Virus record (IMG/VR): IMGVR_UViG_3300009503_000018
Coordinates: 62,001-126,000 of that record
Length of the DNA stretch: 64,000 bases
Strand: one strand, 5' to 3'
DNA from: a virus
This document shows positions 3,084-62,553 of the stretch, piece after piece (the stretch's first letter is position 1; the number at the start of each line of letters is the position of its first letter). Both the position numbers and the translations under genes were made by a program. The notes under the pieces were generated by a model. It did no database searches. It was not told where the DNA came from and saw only the letters and a program-made list of their open reading frames with translations.

Positions 3084-4782
3084 AAGTCCCCTTCGTACAT
3101 TGTAAACGAAGAGCCTCTTCCATGTCTAGTGGTTCAATCGGGCTTTTTCCTCGTGAGCTGTCTCGATACAAAGTCACGCCCTTCAATTGACCAATATATT
3201 TTCTCAAAATTGGATCGAGGTCTTCTCCTGTATATGATTTCGGCAGATTAATCGTTTTGGAGATTGCGTTATCCACATGCCGTTGACAAATCGCTTGAAT
3301 CTCTAAATGATCTTTGACAGAAATTTCAAGGGCAGATTCATACAACCGAACACGAGGATCGCCAGTGTCGCGTAAATCGACGAAAGGTTGGTGTTCGATA
3401 ATCTCTTCTTCTAGGCGATCTCCTGATCGGAATCTACGCCGATACGCGAATGCGTATAACGGTTCAATTCCGCTTGTGACATTAGAAACAATACTCGTTG
3501 TACCTGTCGGAGCACAAGTCAATAAAGCACAATTACGAATGCCGTTTCTCAGAATTCTCTCTCGGATACCAATGCTGAGATTTTTTTGACAAAACCCTGA
3601 CTCAACGAACTTGCCCCGGTTCAATGCCGGAAATTGACCTTTTTCAATGGCGAGGTCAATACTTGCTTCATACGCTTTCTTTTTGATGAATCGGAATACC
3701 TCGTCAACGGCGGCTTTCCCTTCGTCGGATGTGTATTTTTTTCCCAACAAGACCAACATATCGTGCAAGCCCATAACGCCAAGACCGATACGACGGACTT
3801 GTTTGCAATGCTCTTCAATTTCTTTGAGAGGATATGTATTTACATCTAAAACGTTATCCAAAAATCGTACAGCAATAGCAATCGTCCGTGCCAAACTGCG
3901 ACGATCTAATTCTCCATTGACGACAAATCGAGGCAATACAAGCGCACCCAAATCACAACATCCGTAGGCTTCCAAAGGGATTTCGCCGCACGGGTTTGTC
4001 GAAATGCACGGATGAGAATAATAAATGTTGTTCTGTTGATTCCACAACCAGCCATTAAGAATACCGGGCTCTCCACATGCAACAGCGTTGTCTAGAATTT
4101 TTTTCCACAATTCCCGAGCAGGTATGGTCTTTACTACTTGGTTATTCCACATAAATTCGTGGAGTTCGTCTCGTTCTACGCGCTTCAAGAATTTTGTCGG
4201 ATCCTCGTTCATAAAAACGACGCTGACGTTGGCATTAGTCAGTTTTTTGAGGTCGAGCTTTTTGTCCAGAAATTCAGGAATATCTGGATGATCGTGATTC
4301 AAACACAGCATTAGAGCTGTACGCCGTCCTCCTCCGGCGCGGATAACGTCTCCGGCAGCATTGATAATTTCCATAAGAGACACAGCTCCGGTTGCTGCTC
4401 CAGAATGTCCACGAATAACACTACCACGCGGACGAATTGGAGAAAAGTTTATTCCAATTCCTCCCCCCATACCAGACACAACAATCGAATCTGATACTGT
4501 CTTGCCCCATCCTTCGCGGGAGTCGCTTGTCGGCAAACAAAAACAATTCAGCAGTTGTCCACGGGGTCTGCCGCTACCATACCAAATACGACCACCCGGC
4601 ATAAACCGATTATTTACCAATTCGTTCCAAAATACTTCTTCGCACTCTTTGATTTTGTCGTTATTTTCGGCGGCCGCTACAACGCGAGCGACTCGTCGAC
4701 ACGCATCTTCCCACGTCTCGTCATGATTCAAGGCATACCGCTCTTTAAAAATTCGCATTGAAAAATCATTTTTTCCAACCAT
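3073..4782 (-). CDS. nrdJ: Class II (B12-dependent) ribonucleotide reductase
   Basis: The 569-residue protein would reduce ribonucleotides to deoxyribonucleotides for phage DNA synthesis using adenosylcobalamin. Visible hallmarks are the catalytic loop NPCGEIPL (about residues 263-270), the N-terminal cysteine region LLNCFCLP, the CAPTGTTS loop, MGGGIGINF, and a C-terminal cysteine pair CTKGTC that would be re-reduced by thioredoxin-like donors. It is short compared with cellular NrdJ, as is common in phages. I chose ATG 4782 because GAGGA lies 9 bases upstream; a longer TTG start at 4803 is less likely. There is no separate small subunit gene nearby, consistent with class II. It ends inside the start region of the primase-polymerase gene. 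Confidence 0.92.
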   Translation of the reverse strand: MVGKNDFSMRIFKERYALNHDETWEDACRRVARVVAAAENNDKIKECEEVFWNELVNNRFMPGGRIWYGSGRPRGQLLNCFCLPTSDSREGWGKTVSDSIVVSGMGGGIGINFSPIRPRGSVIRGHSGAATGAVSLMEIINAAGDVIRAGGGRRTALMLCLNHDHPDIPEFLDKKLDLKKLTNANVSVVFMNEDPTKFLKRVERDELHEFMWNNQVVKTIPARELWKKILDNAVACGEPGILNGWLWNQQNNIYYSHPCISTNPCGEIPLEAYGCCDLGALVLPRFVVNGELDRRSLARTIAIAVRFLDNVLDVNTYPLKEIEEHCKQVRRIGLGVMGLHDMLVLLGKKYTSDEGKAAVDEVFRFIKKKAYEASIDLAIEKGQFPALNRGKFVESGFCQKNLSIGIRERILRNGIRNCALLTCAPTGTTSIVSNVTSGIEPLYAFAYRRRFRSGDRLEEEIIEHQPFVDLRDTGDPRVRLYESALEISVKDHLEIQAICQRHVDNAISKTINLPKSYTGEDLDPILRKYIGQLKGVTLYRDSSRGKSPIEPLDMEEALRLQCTKGTCEF

Positions 4783-4848
4783 CTCTTTTCTTCCTCGCCC
4801 CAATAGTGTTGATAGTAATCCTAACTCTTTTCTGCGTCCCCAAAAAGT

Positions 4849-38897: not shown

Positions 38898-41800
38898 TTA
38901 TGAAGATAAATTCACTTTATACCCTGCCGATATCATACTCAAAGTCGTCGTCGATGATGGCACCGTAATTTGAACACACAAAGTATCTCCCGCATGAATT
39001 GGTAATGACCCAGTAGCACTTCCGATCCTACTTCCGCTTGTCATCGTCACAACAATTTCATTTCGCGCTACTCCATTCACACAGAACTTCGCCGTTAAAG
39101 AAGCCGCAGTTAAATTTCCCTGCAATACTATGAATAACGATGTTAACGTAAGATCAATAGGGATAATGGCAGTTGCAATACCAGGAGTCGAACTCAAACC
39201 ACCCAAGCTTTCTTGCGCGATTGCCCAATACGAAGTACCAGCTAGAGAAAATCCTCCACTGGTATTAGGAGTAAACAATGCGGCACTGCCCAACGTAGAT
39301 ACTGCGGTTGTCAATGTCCCTCCCAAAGAGATTGTTCCCGTCAAAGCTTTTTGTTGCTGGGTCGGTTCTTCGAAGACTTGGAGACCACATCCCCCGAAGG
39401 GAAGTTTTCCAAAGGGCTCAAATCCGAACCCACAATTGGATACAAACGGGCTGTCGACAATTCCGGCAACGGAGCGGACCCGATAATCATCGACATCAAA
39501 GTCTCCATATGCCGTAACACGGAATTGGACCAAATCACCCAATAGGAATTTATCACCAATATTAAACGGCACAAACGGTCCAAAATTCATATTAGCGTCT
39601 GTCGTTGCAAATTCCCATTGCTCATTAACGGGAGACACAAACTCGACCCGTAACGATTTGTATGTCAATGTATACGTTGCACTATCGTCAAATGCACCAA
39701 GGAATACCTCGACGGTTGTTTCATCAACAAACTGCCAAAATTCATCGCCGACCTCTTGGGTTTGACCAGCTACGGTCTTTTCAAGAGTAGCCAATGCTTG
39801 ATCCATAATCGCTGGGACAGTCAGCTTTGCGATACGGTTTTCATCCAGCGTCAAAACTTTTTGTACATCTTCCTTGATTTCTTCGACATTGCGGACTTTA
39901 TAACTATATGGCAACAATACATACGCCGTTTCTGGCTCAGGAACGGAAATCGGCGGCGTAGTATACTGATATTTGAGGAAATACTCAAACTCATATGTCG
40001 CTGTTGGATCAACTTCTGCGGGATTTAACACAATCGTATTTTCATTCTGGAATTGCCATCCGGATGCGCTTTGAGGAATCGGCATGCCGTTCTTGACAAG
40101 GAGGCTGTCTTGATCTGTTTTTGCAGTAAAATCCAGAGGCGCTGAGAATCCAACACCGCTAAATACGACGACTTGAGCATACCGTCCCCGTTCTATAGGC
40201 TTCAGATACGAGAAGCGGTCTGGAACACGGGGGACGACAACGAAATTTGTCGAGATTCCACTACTATTCGCGAAATCTCCGCTTGTCCCAAAAAAGAAGA
40301 ATCGAGCAGAACGATCGGGTTCAATTTTTTGTCCAACGGGTTTAATCGTCTGTGGATAACTACTATCCCGATCTACTCCGCCCGGGAAAAATGAATAATC
40401 AATAACCAAATCACTTGGAGATGGATCAGGGATAGTACTCGTCCCCGTTCGGGCTAATTGTCCCGTATCGTATCGAATAATATAATCGACATTCCGTGTA
40501 AATGGTTGCGGATCAACTCCGCCGGTTAACTGGCTGGTAATCGGTGATAACGTGACGACGGAAGAATTCGCCGTAAAGATCAACTTGTTACCAGCAACGC
40601 CGGGAGTGATCGCTCGGACTGTGACAATCCCCAGCTCCGTGTTAATTTCCGCTTCATGGGTCAATGAATTGGATAAGACTTGATCAACAAAATTCTGGAA
40701 AGTGTCGTCGGCGGTCAATCCAATTACGACTTGAATATTATTTGCCCCGATTACAAAATTGTTGTCAAACTCGTATACATCATCCCCAAGTCGGATAATA
40801 TCTCCATCAGCAGGATTTCCGGTATACGTAATAGTCCCAAACGCTTGGATGCCACGCCGAGAGACCGATTCTGAATTTTCAAAAATATTCTTGTTTTGTA
40901 AATCTGTAAATTGCGTACCAATAAGAACCACCGGTTCGTCATTAACTTCCTCGACAATTCCTACAAGTCCCGCCTCAATAACCGTAAATGAATCGGGATT
41001 TGCAATGGTCAACCGGTGCAATCCATATTCTCGCTGTTTATTACGCGGAATGGTATGACTGGATAGATGCAGCGATTTATCCGTTTCGTTAATTAAATAG
41101 GGTTCACTGGCCACGACGTGAATACCACTCGTTACTCCAGAGAACGTCATGCGTGCCTCAATCTCTTGAAACTTCTGACCCGGATCGGAGGCAATAACTT
41201 CTACGACTGCGGGACTTTCTGTAATCTGGAGCGGAGTCCCCGTATTAAGAATTCCCGAATCAAATCGTAAAGACGCATACCCCAAAATTCCGCTAACCAT
41301 GAGTCCACTGACCGCAATACCTGAAGGATGAAAAGCGCGAGTCCAAAACCGTAAATGCCAATCCGTGCCAAAAAACTTGTTCGCTTGAGGAACCGCCCGG
41401 GCAATTAACGAAACGACCCCGCTTCCGCCCGCAGCGACTTCCCATGCTGGACGCCGAGTACTAATGTCATTACAAACGCCCTCACCATCAGCAAATCCTA
41501 AAATGGGATTCGCACTTCCAAAACCAATAACCAGACAACTATTGACTCCAGAGTACAATGTCTTGAGACCCAATCGACCATGAGGAAACACATCAGGTAC
41601 TACTTCACAAAATGCAGTAATACCGCTTAAGCGGGCATTCAAATACGCGGCAACTTCATCACACGTCGGATTGTCCGGATCAACAAATCCGCCAGCGATA
41701 GCTCCATCTAAATGCCCAGAAGCTAATACTTTTACTTCCGGAACAACAGTGACTTGATTTGGGTCTGCTCCAGTTCCAACACGGCCGATTACGGAATACC

Positions 41801-44800
41801 CCGTCCCCGGAGTAAAAACATCACTTGACGGTCCAAGAATACTAAAGACCGCCAAGACCAACTCTCCGCTCGTAGACAGTGTAGAGGTCGGCCCAACAGT
41901 CAGACTCGTCCCTACGCCCGTATTTGTTGCCGTCTGATCGGCCATACAAACTGAAGCATTAAGGACACTAATCGCTACTCCATTAAATTGTTGCCCATTA
42001 TTGACGGAAACGATAATCGTGTCCGTCCCAGCCGTTAAATTACTTCCGAGAACACGTGAAAAGACATATACCCGACCGTTGCCTCCTGAAGTCACTGACG
42101 CATCGAGATTGTACGTCCCTCCTTGAGTATCAACGCAGGTCGGGGGTGTCGGATCTTGAGTCGTCGAGGCAGTACCAACACAGACGATAACTTTATTCCC
42201 AGTAAAAACTGTTGATGTAATCCCAACCGTCGCTGTCTGAATTCCCGAAATTGTTTGGAATGTTCCAGCAACTGCAACTGTCGGCGGTGTAGCCGCCGTT
42301 TCGTATGTCACTAATGCGGCCGCATAATTTCGACTGATATTATTGGTTCCTGTCGCTGTCTGCGCTGAGGTGTCTCCATTGTTCGGAAGAATCGTCAATA
42401 CAGAAGATTCTTTTCGAAAAGGTGTCGTATTTCCTGCGACGCCTGGAGTATTCGCCGTGACGGTAATCGTGTTAGACGTGACATCTAAAGTCGTTGTTGC
42501 CTCGCCGACGGCATTCACCAATGCCGTTAGCCCCGAATACGTAAACCCAACACCAGAAGGATTTATGGGAACAAGCATCGTCCCACCACAAATCCCTGAA
42601 GCATTACTATCAAATTCATATCCGACTGAACCAATAACCAACACGTCCCCATCAGCAGGTTGACCACTATACGTAATCAATCCACCAGCGTTCAGTGCAG
42701 TTCCGCCGGACAAAAATCCGGGATTCCCCGTAATCAACGTAAAAGCAGGAGGAGAAGCTGCATTTCCTAAAAAGATAATCTGGTTTCCAGAAAGACCTTC
42801 CTGTGCTTGAATAAGGATTTGGTTGGTGTCCGTATTAATCGTTGCACTCACCAATGAGGATTCAATGTTGATTTCTTGAGTTAATTGAATATAGGGCTGA
42901 TCAATCGTGTCTTGCGGAGGCGGATTATTCGGATCCAGATCTTGAATATGAATCGGGATTGCACCTGGCTGAACAGCCGGCAAACTCCCACCAAACAAAA
43001 ATCCCCCAGAAGGATTTAGCGTAATCGCAGTCGAATTTGCTTGGAATGATATGGTATCGCCTATTGGACCAATAATTTTTGCTCTAAACGTAATTGTTTT
43101 AGCAGTTGTATCGAGTACCGCAGTAACCATCGAGCCCAAAAATGCAACGACGTTTGACTGTAAGATCGAGAAAGTCTCATCGTCTGTAGCACCGATAACA
43201 GACTGAATATGTCCAGGAGCGACCACACAATCCGAATCAAATTCAAAAACAACTCCACCGAGAGTAAAAGTGTCCCCATCGGCAGGTTGTCCGCTGTACG
43301 TTAGTACGCCGGAAGAACGAGAACCGATGTCAAATTCAAAAACTTGATTACCAATATGGACAAAGTCGCCATCTTGAGGATATCCGGTATAAGAGATAAT
43401 TCCAGAAGCGCTCTGCGTTTCGTTCTTAAAAACGACTTTTTGCATGCGACTATCATTGGCGACGTGGAATTCAAGAAGCGTTTTATTGGTGCATTCCCAC
43501 ACCAAATCATCTATGGTAGCTAAAGCGCCTGGACCGGCCGGATCAGGAGAAACCGTGATCAATAATTGTGCGAATTTTGTAGTCGGCGGAGGTGTTGCTT
43601 CTAAACTAAAAGACGAATAATCTTGCGATGGAGCAGGCAACAGAATACCAGTATCGTCTGATCCCAACAAAGTTTGATTTTGGTCAAAATATTGAAATGT
43701 ATACTTAAATTGCGCCGAAACAGCCGGAGAAATAGCGGCGCCCACTGTCGTCGGCGCCTCAGACAACGAATGAAAAATCGTATACGCCGCACCATTCAAC
43801 GGTCTTCGATAAACAAAATACCGACTATTATTGACTGGTGTAGGAGATCCACCCCAATCCCCAACACCGATTACGGTGTGATCTATAAACAAAATATCAC
43901 GAACAATCTGCCGATGAACCCCATTAATAATCGTGTCAACTCGGATTTTATCTCGTACATAGAACAGCCCAGGATTGAAAGAAGGGGCGGTTTGAACACC
44001 GGCGGCGATAAAATCTTGTGTTGGATCTATCAGCCCTTTTGACGTGTACGTTACTGGAACAAGAGATGCACCACCAGAAACATAAACATCCTTCGGAGTT
44101 CCATTCGGTCCTTTCCGCCAAAGATCAATAGCTAGTACGCTGACGAAGACGCCTTTAATTACGCCGTCAAATAAATGAACCCCATCGTCAATATGCACCA
44201 CCATTCCGACTTTAACACCCAGATCAACGAAATTAACACTCAAATCTGTGAGGGTTACTGTGACTTGATCTGGGGTCGAAATTATCGGATCCTCTCCTAC
44301 TTGTTTATCAACATAACCAAAAACGGCGTTCGATGTCTGCCAAGTAAAAAGTGTTGGAGGATTTGGCGGACTAATATAAACCGGTCCTTCATTCGTCGCC
44401 TGATGAAACCCGGTCAATTGTAATACACATCCGCTGCTTGGTATTGATTTCTTTTCTGTTTTTATAGTATTGACTACGTCAACAAGGGTCGTGCCGACCA
44501 AGGTTCGTCTCGTGCGGACAGCCAACGAGGTATGTCCACTGTGAGATTTACTCGTCGTAATAAAGAAATCGGGTCCGTCGGTCGTGTCCCATTCCGTAAA
44601 CCCATTATTAAAACTTCCATTCCCTAACAGCTTCGTCCCTATCAAGCCAGGATACGGAGAGTCTTTTGTGGCTTTTACAACAGCGCTGCCTGTTCCAAAA
44701 ATAGCCGCATCAATGCTCTTCGGTAGCGACAGAGACCCTGTTGGAGCCTCAATACGCCAATCAAACGGTTGTGATCCCTGTAATCCAGGAGGTGGCGGAG

Positions 44801-45485
44801 CGTTTTGTCGAGTAAAATTATCCAATCCAAACAACGTATCCGCAGTCGATGCGATTTCGATACGAACCGATCCACCAGCATCTGATCGTAACGTTTCAAT
44901 ACAAAACCGCTTTCCAAATAAACTCGCCACAGCACCAATTAATTGCGAGTTAATAGCGTCAATGACTTCCTGTTCAGTAACCGCATCACCACTTGGTAAT
45001 GTAATCGTTTGCGGCGTACCACCATCGACCGTGACAATTAAGGTATTCGTATCTTGAGTAATAGTATACGGTCCATCGACAGTAGCACAAACAAAACCGT
45101 CTCCGTGCTTAAAAAAGCGATTCGGAAGATACTGAAAGCCCAACAACCACCGAGAGAGTGATCTTACATCTCGAATAACGGGAGGGATCATGGTCGTCGC
45201 GGCGACGACTTGCGAAATACCCTCGCCAGTTCCCCCGAGCATCAAAAATGCTTGAATCGTTTCTTGCAAATGTTCGCGGAAAACTTCCAACTGCCAAGCC
45301 GGATCAATTTTTCCCCCAGTCAGCACCGCATACCGATCACTCAGATCGCTGATCGCGGCTGTGCTCAAATATATCGCAGCTAATGCGGCCTGGCGTTGAT
45401 CTTCGATTTGTTCAAAGATTTCGCCGATCGCTTCTTCCCAAACTGCGATATTGGAGCCAAAAAAGAAATCTGTAAAATCCGCCAT
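38898..45485 (-). CDS. Giant baseplate/fibre protein, 2195 aa
   Basis: The first 110 residues are helical (MADFTDFFFGSNIAVWEEAIGEI...) and resemble the baseplate-binding part of P2 gpI-type proteins. The rest is a chain of beta domains. Four copies of the motif TYSGxPADGDxxxxGxxxYEFD encode at about 43410, 43310, 42685 and 40837. A different domain, TVDGGTPQTITLPSGDAVTEQEVIDAINS..., is shared with the tail sheath. The C-terminus ends in a small beta domain like that of the 267-aa protein. It is 6.6 kb long, the longest gene here, and lies after the J-like wedge cluster, as expected of a host-attachment fibre. Confidence 0.8.
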   Translation of the reverse strand: MADFTDFFFGSNIAVWEEAIGEIFEQIEDQRQAALAAIYLSTAAISDLSDRYAVLTGGKIDPAWQLEVFREHLQETIQAFLMLGGTGEGISQVVAATTMIPPVIRDVRSLSRWLLGFQYLPNRFFKHGDGFVCATVDGPYTITQDTNTLIVTVDGGTPQTITLPSGDAVTEQEVIDAINSQLIGAVASLFGKRFCIETLRSDAGGSVRIEIASTADTLFGLDNFTRQNAPPPPGLQGSQPFDWRIEAPTGSLSLPKSIDAAIFGTGSAVVKATKDSPYPGLIGTKLLGNGSFNNGFTEWDTTDGPDFFITTSKSHSGHTSLAVRTRRTLVGTTLVDVVNTIKTEKKSIPSSGCVLQLTGFHQATNEGPVYISPPNPPTLFTWQTSNAVFGYVDKQVGEDPIISTPDQVTVTLTDLSVNFVDLGVKVGMVVHIDDGVHLFDGVIKGVFVSVLAIDLWRKGPNGTPKDVYVSGGASLVPVTYTSKGLIDPTQDFIAAGVQTAPSFNPGLFYVRDKIRVDTIINGVHRQIVRDILFIDHTVIGVGDWGGSPTPVNNSRYFVYRRPLNGAAYTIFHSLSEAPTTVGAAISPAVSAQFKYTFQYFDQNQTLLGSDDTGILLPAPSQDYSSFSLEATPPPTTKFAQLLITVSPDPAGPGALATIDDLVWECTNKTLLEFHVANDSRMQKVVFKNETQSASGIISYTGYPQDGDFVHIGNQVFEFDIGSRSSGVLTYSGQPADGDTFTLGGVVFEFDSDCVVAPGHIQSVIGATDDETFSILQSNVVAFLGSMVTAVLDTTAKTITFRAKIIGPIGDTISFQANSTAITLNPSGGFLFGGSLPAVQPGAIPIHIQDLDPNNPPPQDTIDQPYIQLTQEINIESSLVSATINTDTNQILIQAQEGLSGNQIIFLGNAASPPAFTLITGNPGFLSGGTALNAGGLITYSGQPADGDVLVIGSVGYEFDSNASGICGGTMLVPINPSGVGFTYSGLTALVNAVGEATTTLDVTSNTITVTANTPGVAGNTTPFRKESSVLTILPNNGDTSAQTATGTNNISRNYAAALVTYETAATPPTVAVAGTFQTISGIQTATVGITSTVFTGNKVIVCVGTASTTQDPTPPTCVDTQGGTYNLDASVTSGGNGRVYVFSRVLGSNLTAGTDTIIVSVNNGQQFNGVAISVLNASVCMADQTATNTGVGTSLTVGPTSTLSTSGELVLAVFSILGPSSDVFTPGTGYSVIGRVGTGADPNQVTVVPEVKVLASGHLDGAIAGGFVDPDNPTCDEVAAYLNARLSGITAFCEVVPDVFPHGRLGLKTLYSGVNSCLVIGFGSANPILGFADGEGVCNDISTRRPAWEVAAGGSGVVSLIARAVPQANKFFGTDWHLRFWTRAFHPSGIAVSGLMVSGILGYASLRFDSGILNTGTPLQITESPAVVEVIASDPGQKFQEIEARMTFSGVTSGIHVVASEPYLINETDKSLHLSSHTIPRNKQREYGLHRLTIANPDSFTVIEAGLVGIVEEVNDEPVVLIGTQFTDLQNKNIFENSESVSRRGIQAFGTITYTGNPADGDIIRLGDDVYEFDNNFVIGANNIQVVIGLTADDTFQNFVDQVLSNSLTHEAEINTELGIVTVRAITPGVAGNKLIFTANSSVVTLSPITSQLTGGVDPQPFTRNVDYIIRYDTGQLARTGTSTIPDPSPSDLVIDYSFFPGGVDRDSSYPQTIKPVGQKIEPDRSARFFFFGTSGDFANSSGISTNFVVVPRVPDRFSYLKPIERGRYAQVVVFSGVGFSAPLDFTAKTDQDSLLVKNGMPIPQSASGWQFQNENTIVLNPAEVDPTATYEFEYFLKYQYTTPPISVPEPETAYVLLPYSYKVRNVEEIKEDVQKVLTLDENRIAKLTVPAIMDQALATLEKTVAGQTQEVGDEFWQFVDETTVEVFLGAFDDSATYTLTYKSLRVEFVSPVNEQWEFATTDANMNFGPFVPFNIGDKFLLGDLVQFRVTAYGDFDVDDYRVRSVAGIVDSPFVSNCGFGFEPFGKLPFGGCGLQVFEEPTQQQKALTGTISLGGTLTTAVSTLGSAALFTPNTSGGFSLAGTSYWAIAQESLGGLSSTPGIATAIIPIDLTLTSLFIVLQGNLTAASLTAKFCVNGVARNEIVVTMTSGSRIGSATGSLPIHAGDTLCVQITVPSSTTTLSMISAGYKVNLSS

Positions 45486-54688: not shown

Positions 54689-56662
54689 TTACTCTGTCGG
54701 TTCAACACCATAAATACCACTCCTCGCCACGTCCATTTTCTTCAATGTCCCCGTACTAAAAACGTGGTTTGTTGTTTGAACACTCGCGGCAGGGCGATAA
54801 GGGCGAGCCCCCGGTTCTACCCCGACTGTCTGGTTAATGTTTGCAGCCATTGTAGAAACGGCGTTTGGTAATTCGTTCGCAACACGGGCTGCCCCAAAAA
54901 CCGGAGTAGAAAAGAGTCCCGCAGCCATTGTCCCCGCCGAGACGAGATCACCAGGTCCTGGCGGCGTTGGTCCGGGCAAGCCCTTGAGCGCCGAGAAAAC
55001 ACTCATGGTTGTACGTCCCCAATTCTGCCAATACCCATGCGCCCACAACCGTACATCCATCAAAGTGTTTGCGATTCTGTCCATAGTAGATAGCATAGCA
55101 CGACCTTGCTTGTCCGCCGCTTCCAACATATCTTTTTGTAGCCCAGCCTCTTCTAACCGCTTTTTAACGTGAGGATCTCTTTGAGCTTCGCGCATATAAT
55201 CTTTCAAAATTCTTGTCATCGCGCCCGGGTCCGTTGGGCTGACCCCACGAAGTTTAGCACGCTCGGTCAATTCGTGCATTAAACGTTCGATCGCGGCTGC
55301 CTGCGTAGGGAGAATCCCCATTGTTTTTTCCACCGCAGCAAAAGCTGCTATTTGTTGTTCGGGTCCATAACTTTCAAAAAATTGATGAAGACCCATGAAT
55401 TTTGTCAGCGCCATTCGCGCGGCAAAGCCACGACGACCTCGTGTCAAAGCCTGTTGCTCTTGCAGCATCAGCAATCGAGGATCTTTGAACTGCGGCAACG
55501 CTCGTTCTTGCAATTGCTTTAGGAGGTTACGCCCGGCGGCTGTTTGTGACAACAGCAAACGTTCGATTTGACTCCGCCGGAAAACTTCGGCCGTTCCCAT
55601 ACGTGTTACATCTGGAAGAACGCCTTGAAATATACCCGCGCCAATAGGTCCCATTTGTCCCGGGCGGAACATGGGCCCGCCCGGACCTGTGGCCATCGTT
55701 TTTACTAATGCTTCAGCAATAGTATTCATATCACGTAGCGACGCACCACTATTTTTTCCTCCCGCAGTAATTTGTCCTAACACATCAATCAATGTTTGAC
55801 CGGCAGACAGCGTCCTCGCAATACTCGAATTCGTCTGCCAACTCACCGCCAAGAATTCGAGTTGAGCCGACCGCATATCCAAAACCATTCGGCGTGCGTT
55901 TTTAAGGCTTTCACCGTAATGCGTGACCGTCTCTATTTGCAAAGCCGCGACGGTTTGCGGCTTTAAATTCATGATCCGCTCTGTCGCTAATGCAAATTGC
56001 ACTTCACGTTCACTTCCCTCAGCAAAACCAACACCGACTTTAGACAATTGATCAAGTAGCGCGGCAACTTGTTCCTGTGTGGCACCTGTCGATCGTGAAA
56101 TATCGCGCACGGCGAGCATATATCGAGCACCAATATCATCAAAATCGACATCCAAGCGGTGTCCGGCAGTCACAATCGGTGCAACCCGGGCACCAATCAT
56201 GCGGAACCCTTCGTACTGGAACATCAGTTCCTTCATGACGAGGCCGCCGATCATGCCGGCAATAGGTGCCCAAACGCCGCCGACCCCAAGCAACCGCATC
56301 AAACCTCTGCCCGCGAAAGACCCCAAGTCTTCGCCGACTTTCCCAAGACCAGGAGAGATTTGTCCAAGCGTCGTCGGAATTCCACGTTGGAACGATTGCT
56401 GAACAGTTTTTGCCAGACTCTGTGCGAATTCTAAAGATTTACCCCGAGACGTTTCGAAAAACTGAGTCATCATGCGTTCCATCTTGGAACTCATCTTGGA
56501 CAAATGTTTCTCAAATTCGTCGGCCGCTTTCCGCGTCCCTTCGATCATCGCACGGGTGTTTTCTTCGACTTGGCGTCGGCTTTCTTCAAACATTCGCTCG
56601 ATGTCTTGTGGTGACGACTCTGGAGTTAGCGGTCGTCCATATGGGTCATATAGTACCGGCAT
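54689..56662 (-). CDS. Second tape-measure-like protein, 657 aa
   Basis: The protein starts immediately after the stop of the 760-aa tape-measure gene and shares its plan: an N-terminal coiled coil (RRQVEENTRAMIEGTRKAADEFEKHL), a hydrophobic Gly-rich stretch (GVWAPIAGMIGGLVM), then the block FRMIGARVAPIVTAGHRLDVDFDD, which parallels IRMLGARLMPVLTAGHELRTDF in the 760-aa protein. It lacks the C-terminal transglycosylase of the other. The pair may build the tail interior together or act in alternative assemblies. Confidence 0.75.
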   Translation of the reverse strand: MPVLYDPYGRPLTPESSPQDIERMFEESRRQVEENTRAMIEGTRKAADEFEKHLSKMSSKMERMMTQFFETSRGKSLEFAQSLAKTVQQSFQRGIPTTLGQISPGLGKVGEDLGSFAGRGLMRLLGVGGVWAPIAGMIGGLVMKELMFQYEGFRMIGARVAPIVTAGHRLDVDFDDIGARYMLAVRDISRSTGATQEQVAALLDQLSKVGVGFAEGSEREVQFALATERIMNLKPQTVAALQIETVTHYGESLKNARRMVLDMRSAQLEFLAVSWQTNSSIARTLSAGQTLIDVLGQITAGGKNSGASLRDMNTIAEALVKTMATGPGGPMFRPGQMGPIGAGIFQGVLPDVTRMGTAEVFRRSQIERLLLSQTAAGRNLLKQLQERALPQFKDPRLLMLQEQQALTRGRRGFAARMALTKFMGLHQFFESYGPEQQIAAFAAVEKTMGILPTQAAAIERLMHELTERAKLRGVSPTDPGAMTRILKDYMREAQRDPHVKKRLEEAGLQKDMLEAADKQGRAMLSTMDRIANTLMDVRLWAHGYWQNWGRTTMSVFSALKGLPGPTPPGPGDLVSAGTMAAGLFSTPVFGAARVANELPNAVSTMAANINQTVGVEPGARPYRPAASVQTTNHVFSTGTLKKMDVARSGIYGVEPTE

Positions 56663-58945
56663 TTACCCAATTCTCCCCGGGAGATTTGCAATGACTCTCC
56701 GCACATAATCAACAGTACTTAATCCAGTCGCCAAATCTCTTGATCGCAAAGCCCGTGCAAGAGGTTTTCCACTATGCCAGACAGAAGCAACATCTTCTAC
56801 GGTCTTATATTGTCTCATGAGTTTTGCCAATTGATAATTAACAATCTGTTCCTGCAAAGCAGGATTATCATAAAACTCTCTCGGAGTAATTGCATATCCC
56901 AGAGCTTCTTTAGACCATTCTGGGATATTGGCTGGCATCACTTGATATCGTCCAAGAGCGCGTTGTCCAAAATATCGTGACGAAGGATCAGTAATTACCG
57001 GTCCAATCGCATGATATCCCCCACGACTTTTGCTTTCTACGGCTGCTAACGCTTCTTTAACACCAAACAGCGCACTCTCATCCACAAACGTCGTTGTTTG
57101 TTCGATGCCGCGTGAAGTAGATTTGGAATATGAAAAAACAGGAGTAGAACGCGATGGGAAAATACCGGGTTTGACCGGTACTTCGGCAGGAGGAGCCTCT
57201 CGAATCGCCGGTACATCAAGACGAGTGGGCGGAAGTGGAGCTGCTTCCGGCCGCGTTGCGGCGGCAGCTTCCCGTGGAGCAAGCAATTGAATCGCTTGAT
57301 CAAACAATATTGATCCCTTTGTCGCTAGATCATCAAAGAATTTTCCATTCGTCAGTTCAGCTAACCCTTCAGCGACAGAAGCCAATTTCTCTTGCACAGC
57401 AAGCATCGCTTTATCTTTTGTCGATAAAGCCCCGGCTGTTAACTGGGCGGCCTGCCGCATAATTTCTTCAGGATTTTTTCCAGCATATTCCGTGCCTCGC
57501 GTCGCTTCTTTGTATGCGGCACTCTGTCCAATTGCCATAAATGCTTCTTGTGGCTTCATCCCTCTTTCGAGGTTTTTTCGAAATTCATCAGCCATTGTCA
57601 TTACGACATATCCGGCCATTCCTCCAAGCCCAAACGCTGCTTCCAACCTCAAGAGCGTCGCCGTTGATTGCTGTTCGACTGTGCCCGGAAAAGAAGCACG
57701 CATCGCTGAGATCCCTTCCAAAATTGACATGAAATACTGCGATGTCAGCGCCTGGTTCGTGGCCATTAACTGCGTCAATGGAATCGTAATTAAAGCAGGA
57801 TCAAGCCTGTTGATCTCCGCTAACCCTTGTGCCGCTGCGAGGATTTGTTGGCCTCGCGGACTTCGGCTCAAGATATCGGAAATCCAAATCCCTTGCGTAA
57901 TATTTTGTCTCATACTCCCTGTTGTACTTGGGGCCATGCGCTGCATGAATTCTCTTACTACACCCCCCATCATTCCTGGTCGAAGCCCCATTTGCCCCAT
58001 CGTATTTACCATGCCGAGGAGCATAGTATTCATTGCTGTTGCTTCGAGCGCCGTCCCTTTTACAGCGCCGGCAACATCCTGATACAATTGTGCGAGCATA
58101 TTCGTGCTCGAAAGGGCAACAGCAAGAGAGCTGTGAGTACGGCGTGCTACGTTGTGCCAATATTCAGTCGCTGAAGAAACACCTTGCAATATTTTCGCCA
58201 CATCTTGCCATGACTCTCCATATTGAGTAATGATCGTTGCATCTAATGCCTCAACAAGCCCAGATTCCAAGTTTAAAACCTTTTCTGCGGCTAAAGCGTA
58301 TCGTGTTGCCTTTTCTCCTGCTTGATCAAACCGAATACCCAAACGTGACAATTCCGCGGCTAATCCGAAGATTTCTTCTTGTGAAGCCCTTGTTGCTCGT
58401 TGAATATCTGTCGAAATTCGTAGTGCTTGTGCTCCAGAACGTGTAAAATCAGTCCGCAACTCATGTCCGGCCGTGAGTACTGGCATCAACCGGGCCCCTA
58501 ACATACGAATCCCTTCCCGCGCCTGAATTCCAGCCACAAATCCCCCACCTAAGAGTGCGCCAAGTTGGCGACCCAGTTCCGGAGATTTTCCGAATTGCTG
58601 TGCTAACCCTTTCCCTAATGCTGCCCCAATCGCTTTTCCCGCTTCAACGCCGAGTCTTCCAAAGCCGCCCTCGCCGACTATTTTGGTCATATCGCGCAAG
58701 ACATTTTCAAACCCACCAACCACACTCCCCATCAATCGAAGGCTTAAAGATTGGAATCGCGTTAGGTTTTTTTCACTTGTTTCTTGATATTTTTTTGTTC
58801 CGGATTCAACGGTTTGAACATAGAGTTTTTGCATTGCGCTCAGAGACCGCAACGCGGATTCTGTATAGATCTGAAAAAGCTCTTGCTGCTTTTTCAGTGT
58901 CTCGGTAAAAATTCGTTGCTGTTGCTCAAGTTCTTCGGCTGTCAT
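56663..58945 (-). CDS. Tape-measure protein with C-terminal transglycosylase-like domain
   Basis: The 760-residue protein has an N-terminal coiled coil (LEQQQRIFTETLKKQQELF), a Gly-rich hydrophobic region, the shared middle block (IRMLGARLMPVLTAGHELRTDF), and a C-terminal domain from about residue 620 with ALAAVESKSRGGYHAIGP, RALGRYQVMPANIPEWS and NPALQEQIVNYQL, which resembles SLT-type lytic transglycosylases with a Glu in the first motif. Tail length is set by the tape measure; the enzyme would loosen peptidoglycan during DNA entry. It directly follows the tail chaperone genes. Confidence 0.85.
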   Translation of the reverse strand: MTAEELEQQQRIFTETLKKQQELFQIYTESALRSLSAMQKLYVQTVESGTKKYQETSEKNLTRFQSLSLRLMGSVVGGFENVLRDMTKIVGEGGFGRLGVEAGKAIGAALGKGLAQQFGKSPELGRQLGALLGGGFVAGIQAREGIRMLGARLMPVLTAGHELRTDFTRSGAQALRISTDIQRATRASQEEIFGLAAELSRLGIRFDQAGEKATRYALAAEKVLNLESGLVEALDATIITQYGESWQDVAKILQGVSSATEYWHNVARRTHSSLAVALSSTNMLAQLYQDVAGAVKGTALEATAMNTMLLGMVNTMGQMGLRPGMMGGVVREFMQRMAPSTTGSMRQNITQGIWISDILSRSPRGQQILAAAQGLAEINRLDPALITIPLTQLMATNQALTSQYFMSILEGISAMRASFPGTVEQQSTATLLRLEAAFGLGGMAGYVVMTMADEFRKNLERGMKPQEAFMAIGQSAAYKEATRGTEYAGKNPEEIMRQAAQLTAGALSTKDKAMLAVQEKLASVAEGLAELTNGKFFDDLATKGSILFDQAIQLLAPREAAAATRPEAAPLPPTRLDVPAIREAPPAEVPVKPGIFPSRSTPVFSYSKSTSRGIEQTTTFVDESALFGVKEALAAVESKSRGGYHAIGPVITDPSSRYFGQRALGRYQVMPANIPEWSKEALGYAITPREFYDNPALQEQIVNYQLAKLMRQYKTVEDVASVWHSGKPLARALRSRDLATGLSTVDYVRRVIANLPGRIG

Positions 58946-59493
58946 CGAACAATCTTAATTCGGCGCTTTTTTTGTGCTTCAGCTTTTTCTGCTATGGCAT
59001 CAACTTTTTTCAAAATTTGAGGCTCATTTTGAGGTTGCTGGTCTGGATTTCTTTCTAAGCGCATTTTCTTCGCCTTTACCTTTTCTTCCGCCTGTGCAAC
59101 AACACTATCAATTTCGGTCAGCAACCCCTCTTTTTCGAGCATTTCTGCTTGGCGTTCATAAATACTTTCATCAACGCTTGATTCTTCTACACGAACATGT
59201 GTGTTCGCCAATTTTGAATATGCTTCGGGATTTAAGACTGCCGAAAGCGGGATCGCGTGAACAGGATCATCCGCATTAATTGGCGATTCAGGCGATTCAG
59301 AGAACATAGATAAATCCGTCCCAACAAATCGAGCCCAACGGCGCATTTCCCTCCGTTCCCGGCTAATTTGCATTTGGTGTGCCATGATCCACCGCGCTGT
59401 ATTCATCTTTCCGAGCCGAGGATCGGTAGGAGGAATATTCCAATCCGCCAATACCCTTTGCTTCAGCGCGAGAAAAGGGTATTGGCTTAGGAG
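58942..59493 (-). CDS. Tail assembly chaperone extension reached by -1 frameshift
   Basis: This frame lies in the -1 frame relative to the 152-aa chaperone gene and is open from the slippery site (CTC at 59491-59493) to TAA at 58942. Slippage joins residues 1-151 of the first protein to 14 residues starting LLSQYPFLALK and the following 169, giving about 334 aa. A TTG at 59451 exists, but there is no separate ribosome-binding site. The extension ends in a basic helical tail (QKKRRIKIVR). As in lambda gpG/gpGT, both forms are expected to load onto the tape-measure protein. Confidence 0.8.
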   Translation of the reverse strand, partial: LLSQYPFLALKQRVLADWNIPPTDPRLGKMNTARWIMAHQMQISRERREMRRWARFVGTDLSMFSESPESPINADDPVHAIPLSAVLNPEAYSKLANTHVRVEESSVDESIYERQAEMLEKEGLLTEIDSVVAQAEEKVKAKKMRLERNPDQQPQNEPQILKKVDAIAEKAEAQKKRRIKIVR

Positions 59494-59499
59494 TTTTTT
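59447..59499 (-). promoter_or_regulatory. Programmed -1 ribosomal frameshift signal
   Basis: The heptamer A-AAA-AAC (59493-59499) lies in the zero frame just ahead of the stop TAA (59487-59489). Six bases later a perfect 13-bp stem begins (arms 59474-59486 and 59447-59459, loop of 14 bases at 59460-59473). Slippery heptamer, 6-base spacer and strong stem-loop are the classical features of -1 frameshifting. Confidence 0.85.
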
Positions 59500-59945
59500 A
59501 TGTCTTCCTCCGAAACGATCCGGGTCGGCAATTCAACTTCCTTTTGAAACAGATCGTACAATTCTTCCAAATATTCCCGAGGCAGCTTCGAGTACACTTT
59601 AGTGTGCAAATTATATGCAATTAGGTATTTTGAATTTGATGCAATAAATTCTCGTGCTGACAATGGAATCCCTTCGCCCACTTCGTCCAAACCCGGAATC
59701 TGTTCGACCGGAACTCCATCAATGGCGACTGTCGCAACCGCCAACGTGGGCGATCGTTGAGAAGACAACATGACCATTGGACCATTCATATTAATGAACT
59801 GGTCTCTCCAGGTATAATCTTCATCGAACAACGACCGAAACGTATATGTCTTTCCACGACACGTAACCGTTTTTGTGACTTTCCCCTTTTCGATCAAATC
59901 ATACAGATCATCAAGGGGGTTAATTGCCGACTTCGGTATGCTCAT
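59487..59945 (-). CDS. Tail assembly chaperone (gpG-like), 152 aa
   Basis: The protein lies between the tail tube and tape-measure genes, where myophages encode assembly chaperones. It has TYTFRSLFDEDYTWRDQFIN, FIASNSKYLIAYNL and a helical C-terminus (YLEELYDLFQKEVELP) and ends at a TAA that is bypassed by -1 frameshift. An ideal GGAGGTGTT site precedes ATG 59945. The position and the frameshift signal identify the role more than the sequence itself does. Confidence 0.8.
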   Translation of the reverse strand: MSIPKSAINPLDDLYDLIEKGKVTKTVTCRGKTYTFRSLFDEDYTWRDQFINMNGPMVMLSSQRSPTLAVATVAIDGVPVEQIPGLDEVGEGIPLSAREFIASNSKYLIAYNLHTKVYSKLPREYLEELYDLFQKEVELPTRIVSEEDIKNS

Positions 59946-60067: not shown

Positions 60068-60514
60068 TTACAGATTGAGAATATCGGTAACTTCGAGGGT
60101 TGCGTCTGCTCGGATCACACGCTCTCCAGTCGCGCTGTACTCTCGACCAATAGAACTAAACCAACACCCTTGATAGATTGTTCCAATAATCAAACCGCTT
60201 GGAAGTTGCCAAATCTCCTGCACATCAAATGGGTTAGTATGATCGGCAAGATGAATCGCACTTGCTGGGAATCCAAATGCTTCGTGCATACGCTTGGTAA
60301 ATAGATCATACCGAGCAACATCAATTTGAAGCTGAGTCACGTTCCCGGGAACAATATCAATACGCCGACCTGAAGTCAACGAATTCAATTCGTAAATCGG
60401 CGTCATATCCCGCTGTTGACGCGGTGCCCATCGTTGGATGATACCGATCGTTACACCTCGAAAACGGATCGAGATGATGTGCTGACTAGCAACTCGTGTA
60501 TTGGGAATAGCCAT
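60068..60514 (-). CDS. Tail tube protein
   Basis: The 148-residue protein follows the sheath gene and is beta-rich, with the typical order of a myophage tube (IISIRFRGVTIGIIQRW..., NSLTSGRRIDIVPGNVTQLQIDVARYDLF...VIRADATLEVTDILNL). ATG 60514 is preceded by GAGGA at 9 bases. It forms the inner tube through which DNA passes and should be expressed at the same high level as the sheath. Confidence 0.85.
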   Translation of the reverse strand: MAIPNTRVASQHIISIRFRGVTIGIIQRWAPRQQRDMTPIYELNSLTSGRRIDIVPGNVTQLQIDVARYDLFTKRMHEAFGFPASAIHLADHTNPFDVQEIWQLPSGLIIGTIYQGCWFSSIGREYSATGERVIRADATLEVTDILNL

Positions 60515-60543
60515 ATTAAGCAATCCTCTTCATTAACTTATAT

Positions 60544-62553
60544 TTAGGCACCTGACGGCACAGCCACACTATATGTTCCAAATAGTCTCTTCGCAATAAA
60601 CTTCACAAAGAAGAAAAATCGGAAGTCATACGTTGTCGGATCACTCTTGCGCTGTTGGACGATAATATCCGTAGCCAAGTCAATATTACGGATTGATCCA
60701 TCGTTGTTTTGAAATGGCGCAATCGCCCCATCGGCAATTGCTGCATTCAACTGTGTCGCGATTTGCGACTTAACTTCAAAGACGAACTGCGCCAAATCAT
60801 CGGGTACAAGTCCTACGATTGTCGCATCGAGCTGGTTCCGAACACGCTTGACAATATTGTCTTTTTGTGCCATGACGTTAATTTCACGGAATTCCGCGCT
60901 CGACTGATCCGTAGTTACCGGATCAAATAGCAAGAAACGCCCGCCCTTCGTATCCACCAAGTTCACCCCATTCGAAGCCATAAAATCGCGATCGCCTTTA
61001 TTCATAATCTCGACGGCGTCGAAGCCCACCAGCTCTTTGCGCAATAGCCCTTCAGCCGGGCTCAAGAAACTAGCCTGCAATGCAGCGACCGCCGTAGCAA
61101 GATAGGTGCTATCCAACTTGAGTTGCTTTGCTGATCCGTCTGGGAACCGGAACGTCTTCTGCACAAACGACGGTCCCGTGAGCACAAACCGACCCCGACC
61201 CGGACTGTCGGCAGCAACCTGCAATTCCTGCGTGGCGACAAAGACGAACGTCCCAGCCGTCTCTCCATCTCCAGCAACAGTTCCAACGGGCATGCCAAAC
61301 CAGCCCATACGTTCCGCCTTATTAATCAAGCTCGACTGTTGGATTACATGGTCCCGCAATGCAGCACGAACCAATGGTTTCACTCCGCCCGCATTAAGCG
61401 TAGGATGCCCGAGTACAACAATATCTGTCAGATCAGGATTTAATTCGGCGCCTTTAATCGCGGTAATATAGTCAATATCTTGAGCTGCCTGTCCCGTTCC
61501 GGTATTCTGAACCTGAATATGATAGAGAAACGGTGGCTGCTGCTCAAAGGCGATTTGTCCCGCCAATGCAAGCGCATTCGTTGACGAAATCGGTCCGACT
61601 TTTGCAATAAACTGATCAAAACTGGTACTCAAAATGGGCGTATTGAAATCCGTCGCAGGACGGTTTGCATGATACGTAACAAAATACGTCGCTCCCTGTG
61701 CTGGATTCTTGCCAGCGCCTTGAGCAAATTGTCCACTCAAGAAACCAAGAATGGAATTCGAAGTCCCGGCGCCGACTTGAATTGTGGCACTATTTCCAAC
61801 CGCCGTTGTTTTCAACACCACATGTCCACCTGAAGCGAATGCCGCCATGCCGGTAATATTGGTATTCAAAACCGTAACAACTTCTGCCGCCGTCGCAGCA
61901 TTGGGATTTGCAAAGTTCCCATTTGAGAACGTAACGGACTGTTCAATGCCACCATTCAACGTTACGTTGAATGTCTGTCCTACTAATCCACTAAACGTTT
62001 CGGTCGTGGATCCCGTAATGGTCGGCGCAGTCGGGCTCAGCCACGCAACCCCAGAACTCACCAAAACATAATCTGTCCCAGACACGAAATCACTCGTACC
62101 CGGAAAGGATCCAACACGGACAATCGCTCCACATGGCACATTCACATCAAACGCCAACTCGTCGACCGTTTGTGTCGCCGTCGTAGCTTGATAGGAGAAC
62201 GTGTATGTCGCGGTCGGATCAAAAAACGCTGCCGCAATCTGAATGGTCGTTGCGTTTACAACAGAAAAAGCGTCGGCAACTTGCTGATCTCCATTTTTGA
62301 ACAAAAACATGGAGCTTTTCTTGCCGTCGCTGGTTTTGGACAAAGTAAATTGCAGTGTGCTCGGATTGACGGTAACGGCTTCCTGATTAATATAGGCTCG
62401 AACAACACTTTCATCGGTCACGAGTTTGCACGGATCACCTTCGCCGATCAGCACGAGCTGCCGGGGGAGACCAATAAATGCCGGAATAGGCTGAACGACC
62501 TCTTCCTGAATATATACCCCAGGCGGAACATACCGTGATACGCGAATTGCCAT
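60544..62553 (-). CDS. Contractile tail sheath protein, 669 aa
   Basis: The N-terminus MAIRVSRYVPPGVYIQEE is the handshake strand region of sheath proteins, and the C-terminal half has GGRFLLFDPVTTDQSSAEFREINVMAQKDNIVKRVRNQLDATIVG and PFQNNDGSIRNIDLATDIIVQQRKSDPTTYDFRFFFFVKFIAKRLFGTYSVAVPS, classical for sheaths. Around residues 175-275 an additional beta domain is inserted (NGGIEQSVTFSNGNFANPNAATAAEVVTVLN), shared with the giant fibre protein. An AGGAGG site precedes ATG 62553. Confidence 0.95.
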   Translation of the reverse strand: MAIRVSRYVPPGVYIQEEVVQPIPAFIGLPRQLVLIGEGDPCKLVTDESVVRAYINQEAVTVNPSTLQFTLSKTSDGKKSSMFLFKNGDQQVADAFSVVNATTIQIAAAFFDPTATYTFSYQATTATQTVDELAFDVNVPCGAIVRVGSFPGTSDFVSGTDYVLVSSGVAWLSPTAPTITGSTTETFSGLVGQTFNVTLNGGIEQSVTFSNGNFANPNAATAAEVVTVLNTNITGMAAFASGGHVVLKTTAVGNSATIQVGAGTSNSILGFLSGQFAQGAGKNPAQGATYFVTYHANRPATDFNTPILSTSFDQFIAKVGPISSTNALALAGQIAFEQQPPFLYHIQVQNTGTGQAAQDIDYITAIKGAELNPDLTDIVVLGHPTLNAGGVKPLVRAALRDHVIQQSSLINKAERMGWFGMPVGTVAGDGETAGTFVFVATQELQVAADSPGRGRFVLTGPSFVQKTFRFPDGSAKQLKLDSTYLATAVAALQASFLSPAEGLLRKELVGFDAVEIMNKGDRDFMASNGVNLVDTKGGRFLLFDPVTTDQSSAEFREINVMAQKDNIVKRVRNQLDATIVGLVPDDLAQFVFEVKSQIATQLNAAIADGAIAPFQNNDGSIRNIDLATDIIVQQRKSDPTTYDFRFFFFVKFIAKRLFGTYSVAVPSGA

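Follow-up and report, generated by a model that had tools for sequence, protein, structure and literature searches.

A lambda G/GT-type programmed -1 ribosomal frameshift with a covarying hairpin very probably joins the tail chaperone frames of an uncultured contractile-tailed virus

Introduction

In bacteriophage lambda, a -1 frameshift at G_GGA_AAG gives rise to gpG and gpGT (Levin 1993, Xu 2004, 2013, reviewed in PMC5009743), and G binds the tape measure while T binds the tube protein (PMC5009743). This kind of frameshift is a textbook case for lambda-like phages and has been described for the myophage tail chaperone of Pakpunavirus / Vandenendeviridae, in line with the original prediction, which named it as known in lambda and many myophages. 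The passages of the Pakpunavirus report that deal with the chaperone give GTTTTT as the slip site and an open second frame at -1 for all relatives, and within these passages a conserved hairpin is not described (PMC12846349). For the tail genes of Corynephage phi16, an internal Shine-Dalgarno-like sequence, the heptamer GGGGGAA and a 3' RNA structure, predicted to be an H-type pseudoknot, have been proposed from a single genome (PMC5506516). The g-t gene pair of the haloarchaeal tailed virus HCTV-2, a siphovirus, carries A_AAA_AAC (PMC5009743). Outside of viruses, the cellular gene dnaX of E. coli combines a GGAGG-like 5' sequence, the A-rich heptamer A_AAA_AAG and a 3' stem-loop, and here the shift truncates the product rather than extending it (PMC5009743). 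The spacer between heptamer and structure is usually 5-9 nt long (PMC5009743).

Here, we analysed a 64-kb stretch of DNA (the window), which comprises bases 62001-126000 of a 139,527-bp IMG/VR virus record. Coordinates of features in the window are window positions and refer to the minus strand. As in lambda, two overlapping frames, the second at -1, are flanked by the genes for the tail tube and the tape measure, an in-phase X_XXY_YYZ heptamer is found near the end of G, and the predicted products are a short chaperone and its long fusion form. Unlike lambda, the window has A_AAA_AAC as the heptamer, a long stem 6 nt downstream and a contractile tail, and no sequence similarity to the lambda proteins was detected. 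The heptamer is that of HCTV-2, and the possible 5' and 3' elements described below resemble those proposed for phi16 and those of dnaX, whose heptamer ends in AAG instead of AAC.

Results

The minus strand reads 5'-...GAC ATA AAA AAC TCC TAA at the junction of the two frames. The slippery heptamer A_AAA_AAC (59493..59499) has the zero-frame phase AT[A] [AAA] [AAC], that is X_XXY_YYZ, and is followed by the 6-nt spacer TCCTAA (59487..59492), which includes the gpG stop codon; the predicted in-frame position directly 5' of this stop was thus confirmed. The zero-frame product, assigned from its ORF, position, structural model and homologues, is a gpG-like tail assembly chaperone of 152 aa (59487..59945) with the C-terminus ...EEDIKNS*. 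The -1 frame is open from a CTC codon at 59493 to a stop at 58942, which corresponds to 183 codons plus stop (58942..59493) and encodes a T-like segment that would be read after a shift only. The length of the fusion, 151 + 183 = 334 aa, agrees with the proteins of 152 and roughly 334 aa that had been predicted, as does the -1 phase of the second frame and its opening at the heptamer. A Shine-Dalgarno-like GGAGG (59507..59511) is present 7 nt 5' of the heptamer and might act as a 5' stimulator. It is found in the window and the near-identical L003 only; of the other close relatives described below, L005 has AGGTG and L006 has none. The GGAGG could promote slippage in a dnaX-like manner, although it lacks conservation in the close relatives.

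Downstream of the spacer, the fold and conserved pairs delineate a putative stimulatory stem-loop (59447..59486) with a perfect stem of 13 bp, formed by the 5' arm GCCAATACCCTTT (59486..59474) and the 3' arm AAAGGGTATTGGC (59459..59447), and a 14-nt loop (59473..59460). The spacer of six bases, the stem and the loop of the original prediction therefore hold to the base. AAAAAAC alone occurs at the expected frequency in the window (32 found versus 30 expected), but its pairing with a long perfect stem is uncommon: a search of both strands of the 64 kb for XXXYYYZ followed at 3-10 nt by a perfectly paired stem (8 bp or longer) returned three sites, among which the chaperone site has the longest stem and the other two have shorter ones. 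The 80 nt starting at the heptamer have a folding energy of -29.8 kcal/mol, compared to -14.2 kcal/mol for shuffled sequences (z = -5.9), and 0/200 shuffles were as good. No match to Rfam was found anywhere in the window.

The two frames are located in a contractile tail module, at the usual position of tail assembly chaperones. In minus-strand order, the module consists of a sheath gene (60544-62553; phrog_2839, E = 1e-16), a gene for a tube-like protein (60068-60523; a weak match to phrog_985, which is labelled virion structural), gpG/T, two long ORFs of 760 aa (56663-58945) and 657 aa (54689-56662), which we label tape-measure-like from their position and without a family match, and then further genes including one for a baseplate wedge / J-like protein. 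L005 has the same gene order. The 657- and 760-aa ORFs are paralogous (28% identity across some 400 residues, E = 2e-33), and L005 has a comparable pair of 764 and 620 aa. Of the two ORFs in the window, only the 760-aa one has a C-terminal segment, GRYQVMP..., with the look of a lysozyme-type domain. A 2195-aa ORF (38898-45485) without a PHROG match lies 3' of the baseplate genes. A terminator-like hairpin with a T-rich tail (59992-59971) separates the tube gene from gpG and could reduce the expression of the chaperone relative to the tube. No tRNA genes were found in a search of the window.

The window gpG matched no PHROG or Pfam family, neither gpG nor T had a match in sequence searches of named phages, and a profile search of PDB sequences returned noise only. 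However, comparison of an AlphaFold2 model of gpG (pLDDT 79.7) with predicted viral structures using Foldseek identified the predicted tail assembly chaperones of Rhodococcus phage Finch (E = 1.2e-4) and Bacillus phage Gemini (E = 2.2e-3), the unnamed Bacillus phage G proteins gp182 (4.3e-4) and gp181 (1.3e-3) and, as a weak match, N15 GT. In the PDB, Foldseek found no match at E <= 0.001. By this comparison, in which both sides are predicted models, gpG has a tail assembly chaperone fold. In the T model, residues 1-50, which are encoded from the junction across the hairpin, have pLDDT values of about 84-96 and the remainder is less certain; Foldseek gave no significant match for T.

Profiles built from the gpG, T and tube alignments recovered only three close contigs. 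L003 (contig 3300035183_001290) is near-identical to the window, and L005 and L006 share ~63% identity with it in the sheath and 52-60% in gpG. A_AAA_AAC is unchanged in all three. In L005 and L006, it is followed by the 6-nt spacer TC[CA]TAA and a 13-bp stem as in the window; these intact relatives, in which the lack of heptamer and stem would have spoken against a frameshift, keep both. All pairs of the stem (13/13) are retained in the window, L005 and L006, so that 39/39 helix cells pair, and sliding the partners in this alignment lowers helix pairing to 33-49%. Three stem pairs show double-sided changes between these three sequences. For pair 18-49 (CAA to CAG with TTG to CTG) and pair 24-43 (CCT to CCG with AGG to CGG), the changes are synonymous on both sides, while for pair 25-42 one side is silent and the other leads to one amino-acid change. 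As the double changes are silent on both sides for the first two pairs and on one side for the third, protein constraint does not account for them. The shuffle control is modest with three sequences (18/500 shuffles reach the observed score), and it is the coding context of the double changes in the alignment rather than this control that makes the case for a covarying helix. In the close relatives, conservation of the -1 protein (L[LI]SQYP.L..KQRVLA.W.....TD.RLGKMN.ARW) sets in at the first codon past the heptamer, upstream of every plausible internal start.

Among named genomes, Virus Rctr197k (KX853510), which comes from a methane-oxidising enrichment, gave the best matches for the sheath (33%) and the tube (41%). 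No relative was recovered when genome contigs were scanned with a profile of the sheath alignment; addition of the Rctr197k sheath to the profile revealed 23 further, more distant contigs, and nearly all of these carry a gpG homologue 3' of the tube gene. This placement is the same in 22 loci, which we examined with L003 representing the window. The next conserved frame after gpG is at -1 in 22/22 loci. A canonical in-phase heptamer, defined as X_XXY_YYZ with Y = A or T, is present within the overlap in 19/22 loci, whereas 1.5 are expected from the heptamer rate in other ORFs of the same loci (Poisson P about 7e-15, with loci treated as independent despite their shared ancestry). A_AAA_AAC also occurs in L026, L035, L036 and L039, and other relatives have CCCAAAC, CCCTTTA or GGGAAAA at the homologous site. 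The remaining three loci lack a canonical heptamer and have U_UUU_UGA (L032) or A_AAA_G (L020 and L033) at the homologous point; as a weaker reading of these sequences, they are possible single-tRNA slip sites in the same -1 arrangement. When translated from the slip site, T is homologous across the loci and in most begins with two hydrophobic residues.

Stems starting 3-9 nt past the heptamer were scored against shuffles and against other positions in the same region. The stem beats 97% of shuffles and other positions in 18/22 loci, and in most of the 22 a long stem begins 3-8 nt past the heptamer; a convincing stem was not found in L015, L020 and L032, and that in L019 is weak. Since three of the 22 loci are without a canonical heptamer and several without a convincing stem, not all relatives use the same signal. 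An independent group of nine members (L026, L027, L031, L034-L037, L039 and L040), which can be aligned without gaps, has a 6-nt spacer and a 13-bp helix as in the window and a 24-nt loop. In this group, 93% of helix cells are paired compared to 33-66% when the partners are slid, and three pairs are doubly changed, with a covariation score of 0.387 versus 0.222 in shuffles. The distance between helix and heptamer is constant in relatives even if their gpG stop is located 39-87 nt farther downstream.

Rctr197k itself (L015) resembles the window in its gene order, its G and T homologues and the -1 position of T overlapping G; it differs in its in-phase site, C_CCT_TTA, and in its stem, which is not significant. 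Its gene pair (L015 4828-6062; KX853510 76827-78061) was deposited as two separate hypothetical proteins and is probably one frameshifted gene. In addition, L015 has two tail tube homologues in tandem (3613-4119 and 4180-4812), compared to a single tube gene in the window and in its close relatives.

Discussion

We consider it very probable that the two frames of this uncultured contractile-tailed virus are joined by programmed -1 ribosomal frameshifting as in lambda G/GT. Our analysis shows the site and its phase, the hairpin, the conservation of these elements, the covariation, protein-level coding before and after the junction, the gene order and the chaperone-like gpG fold. From these we infer that slippage occurs, how efficient it is and what the short and long products do. 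The claim of the original prediction that a frameshift links two tail chaperone frames is strongly supported by the conserved heptamer and stem with compensatory changes, the 22/22 loci with -1 phase and the gpG fold. In the mechanism we propose, ribosomes translating gpG would reach A_AAA_AAC with the 13-bp hairpin positioned at the mRNA entrance. The majority would continue and terminate two codons later, which would yield the 152-aa gpG. A minority would slip back by one base, with both tRNAs re-pairing on AAA AAA, and would read on in the -1 frame to produce the 334-aa gpG-T fusion. If the roles are those of the lambda proteins, gpG might coat the tape-measure protein, and the T part of the fusion might recruit tail-tube subunits.

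Alternatively, gpG and T could be separate proteins, with T translated from an internal start (TTG 59451 or ATG 59406) and the heptamer present by chance. ORF finders indeed call a 169-aa ORF from TTG 59451, and the three close relatives share an ATG (KMN). However, both the conservation and the confidently predicted fold of T extend upstream of these two codons up to the heptamer, start positions and Shine-Dalgarno matches of T are not common to the relatives, and in about half of the 19 heptamer sites no start with even a 4-nt Shine-Dalgarno match is present within the first 60 codons. Separate starts would also leave the -1 phase in all 22 loci and the conserved hairpin unexplained, and we regard this explanation as improbable.

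Even less probable is that the frames are joined by transcriptional rather than ribosomal slippage, with the polymerase slipping on the A6 run. Runs of 6-7 A are present at the site in many relatives, but six A are a short run for polymerase slippage, and the runs in the homologous C- and G-containing heptamers are too short for it. RNA hairpins can promote polymerase slippage (PMC5009743); yet the phase is always X_XXY_YYZ, and spacer and stem match ribosomal signals (5-9 nt, PMC5009743). A strong stem immediately 3' of the gpG stop codon might also suggest a role in transcription termination or RNA processing unconnected with frameshifting. This is the least credible reading, and we reject a terminator at the stem, as no T run follows it, a terminator scan does not call it, the conserved -1 frame passes straight through the hairpin, and the hairpin keeps its distance to the heptamer in relatives even where the gpG stop is farther downstream.

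Returning to ribosomal frameshifting, the hairpin has the features of a dnaX-like 3' stimulator, namely a stable stem-loop located 6 nt 3' of the heptamer with compensatory changes. The description of heptamer and stem as unusually strong in the original prediction finds no support. A_AAA_AAC was well below A_AAA_AAG in published tests in E. coli, which may not be the host of this virus, and it is among the best heptamers on mammalian ribosomes (PMC5009743). In addition, the stems of relatives are equally stable, and the hairpin region of L005 is more stable than that of the window. The efficiency of the frameshift cannot be read from the sequence. We suggest only tentatively, and with some doubt, that frameshifting in the Rctr197k-related group depends on a long hairpin of 13 bp whose spacing from the heptamer is fixed at 6 nt, while its loop is free to range from 14 to 24 nt.

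As far as the passages available from it go, the literature naming Rctr197k appears not to treat the chaperone site, and the passages on frameshifting in the PaBG paper, which belongs to this literature, concern dnaX. The frameshift is of a known kind, and the covarying hairpin, its constant distance and its presence in a divergent uncultured group are a modest addition. Gene callers split the gene pair, for example in Rctr197k, and our analysis corrects its annotation. It also widens the range of the lambda-type chaperone frameshift to viruses with contractile tails whose group had not been described. Varied heptamers and a covarying hairpin at a near-constant distance make the set of about 20 divergent natural sites a useful comparative test bed for the trade-off between hairpin and heptamer in bacterial -1 frameshifting.
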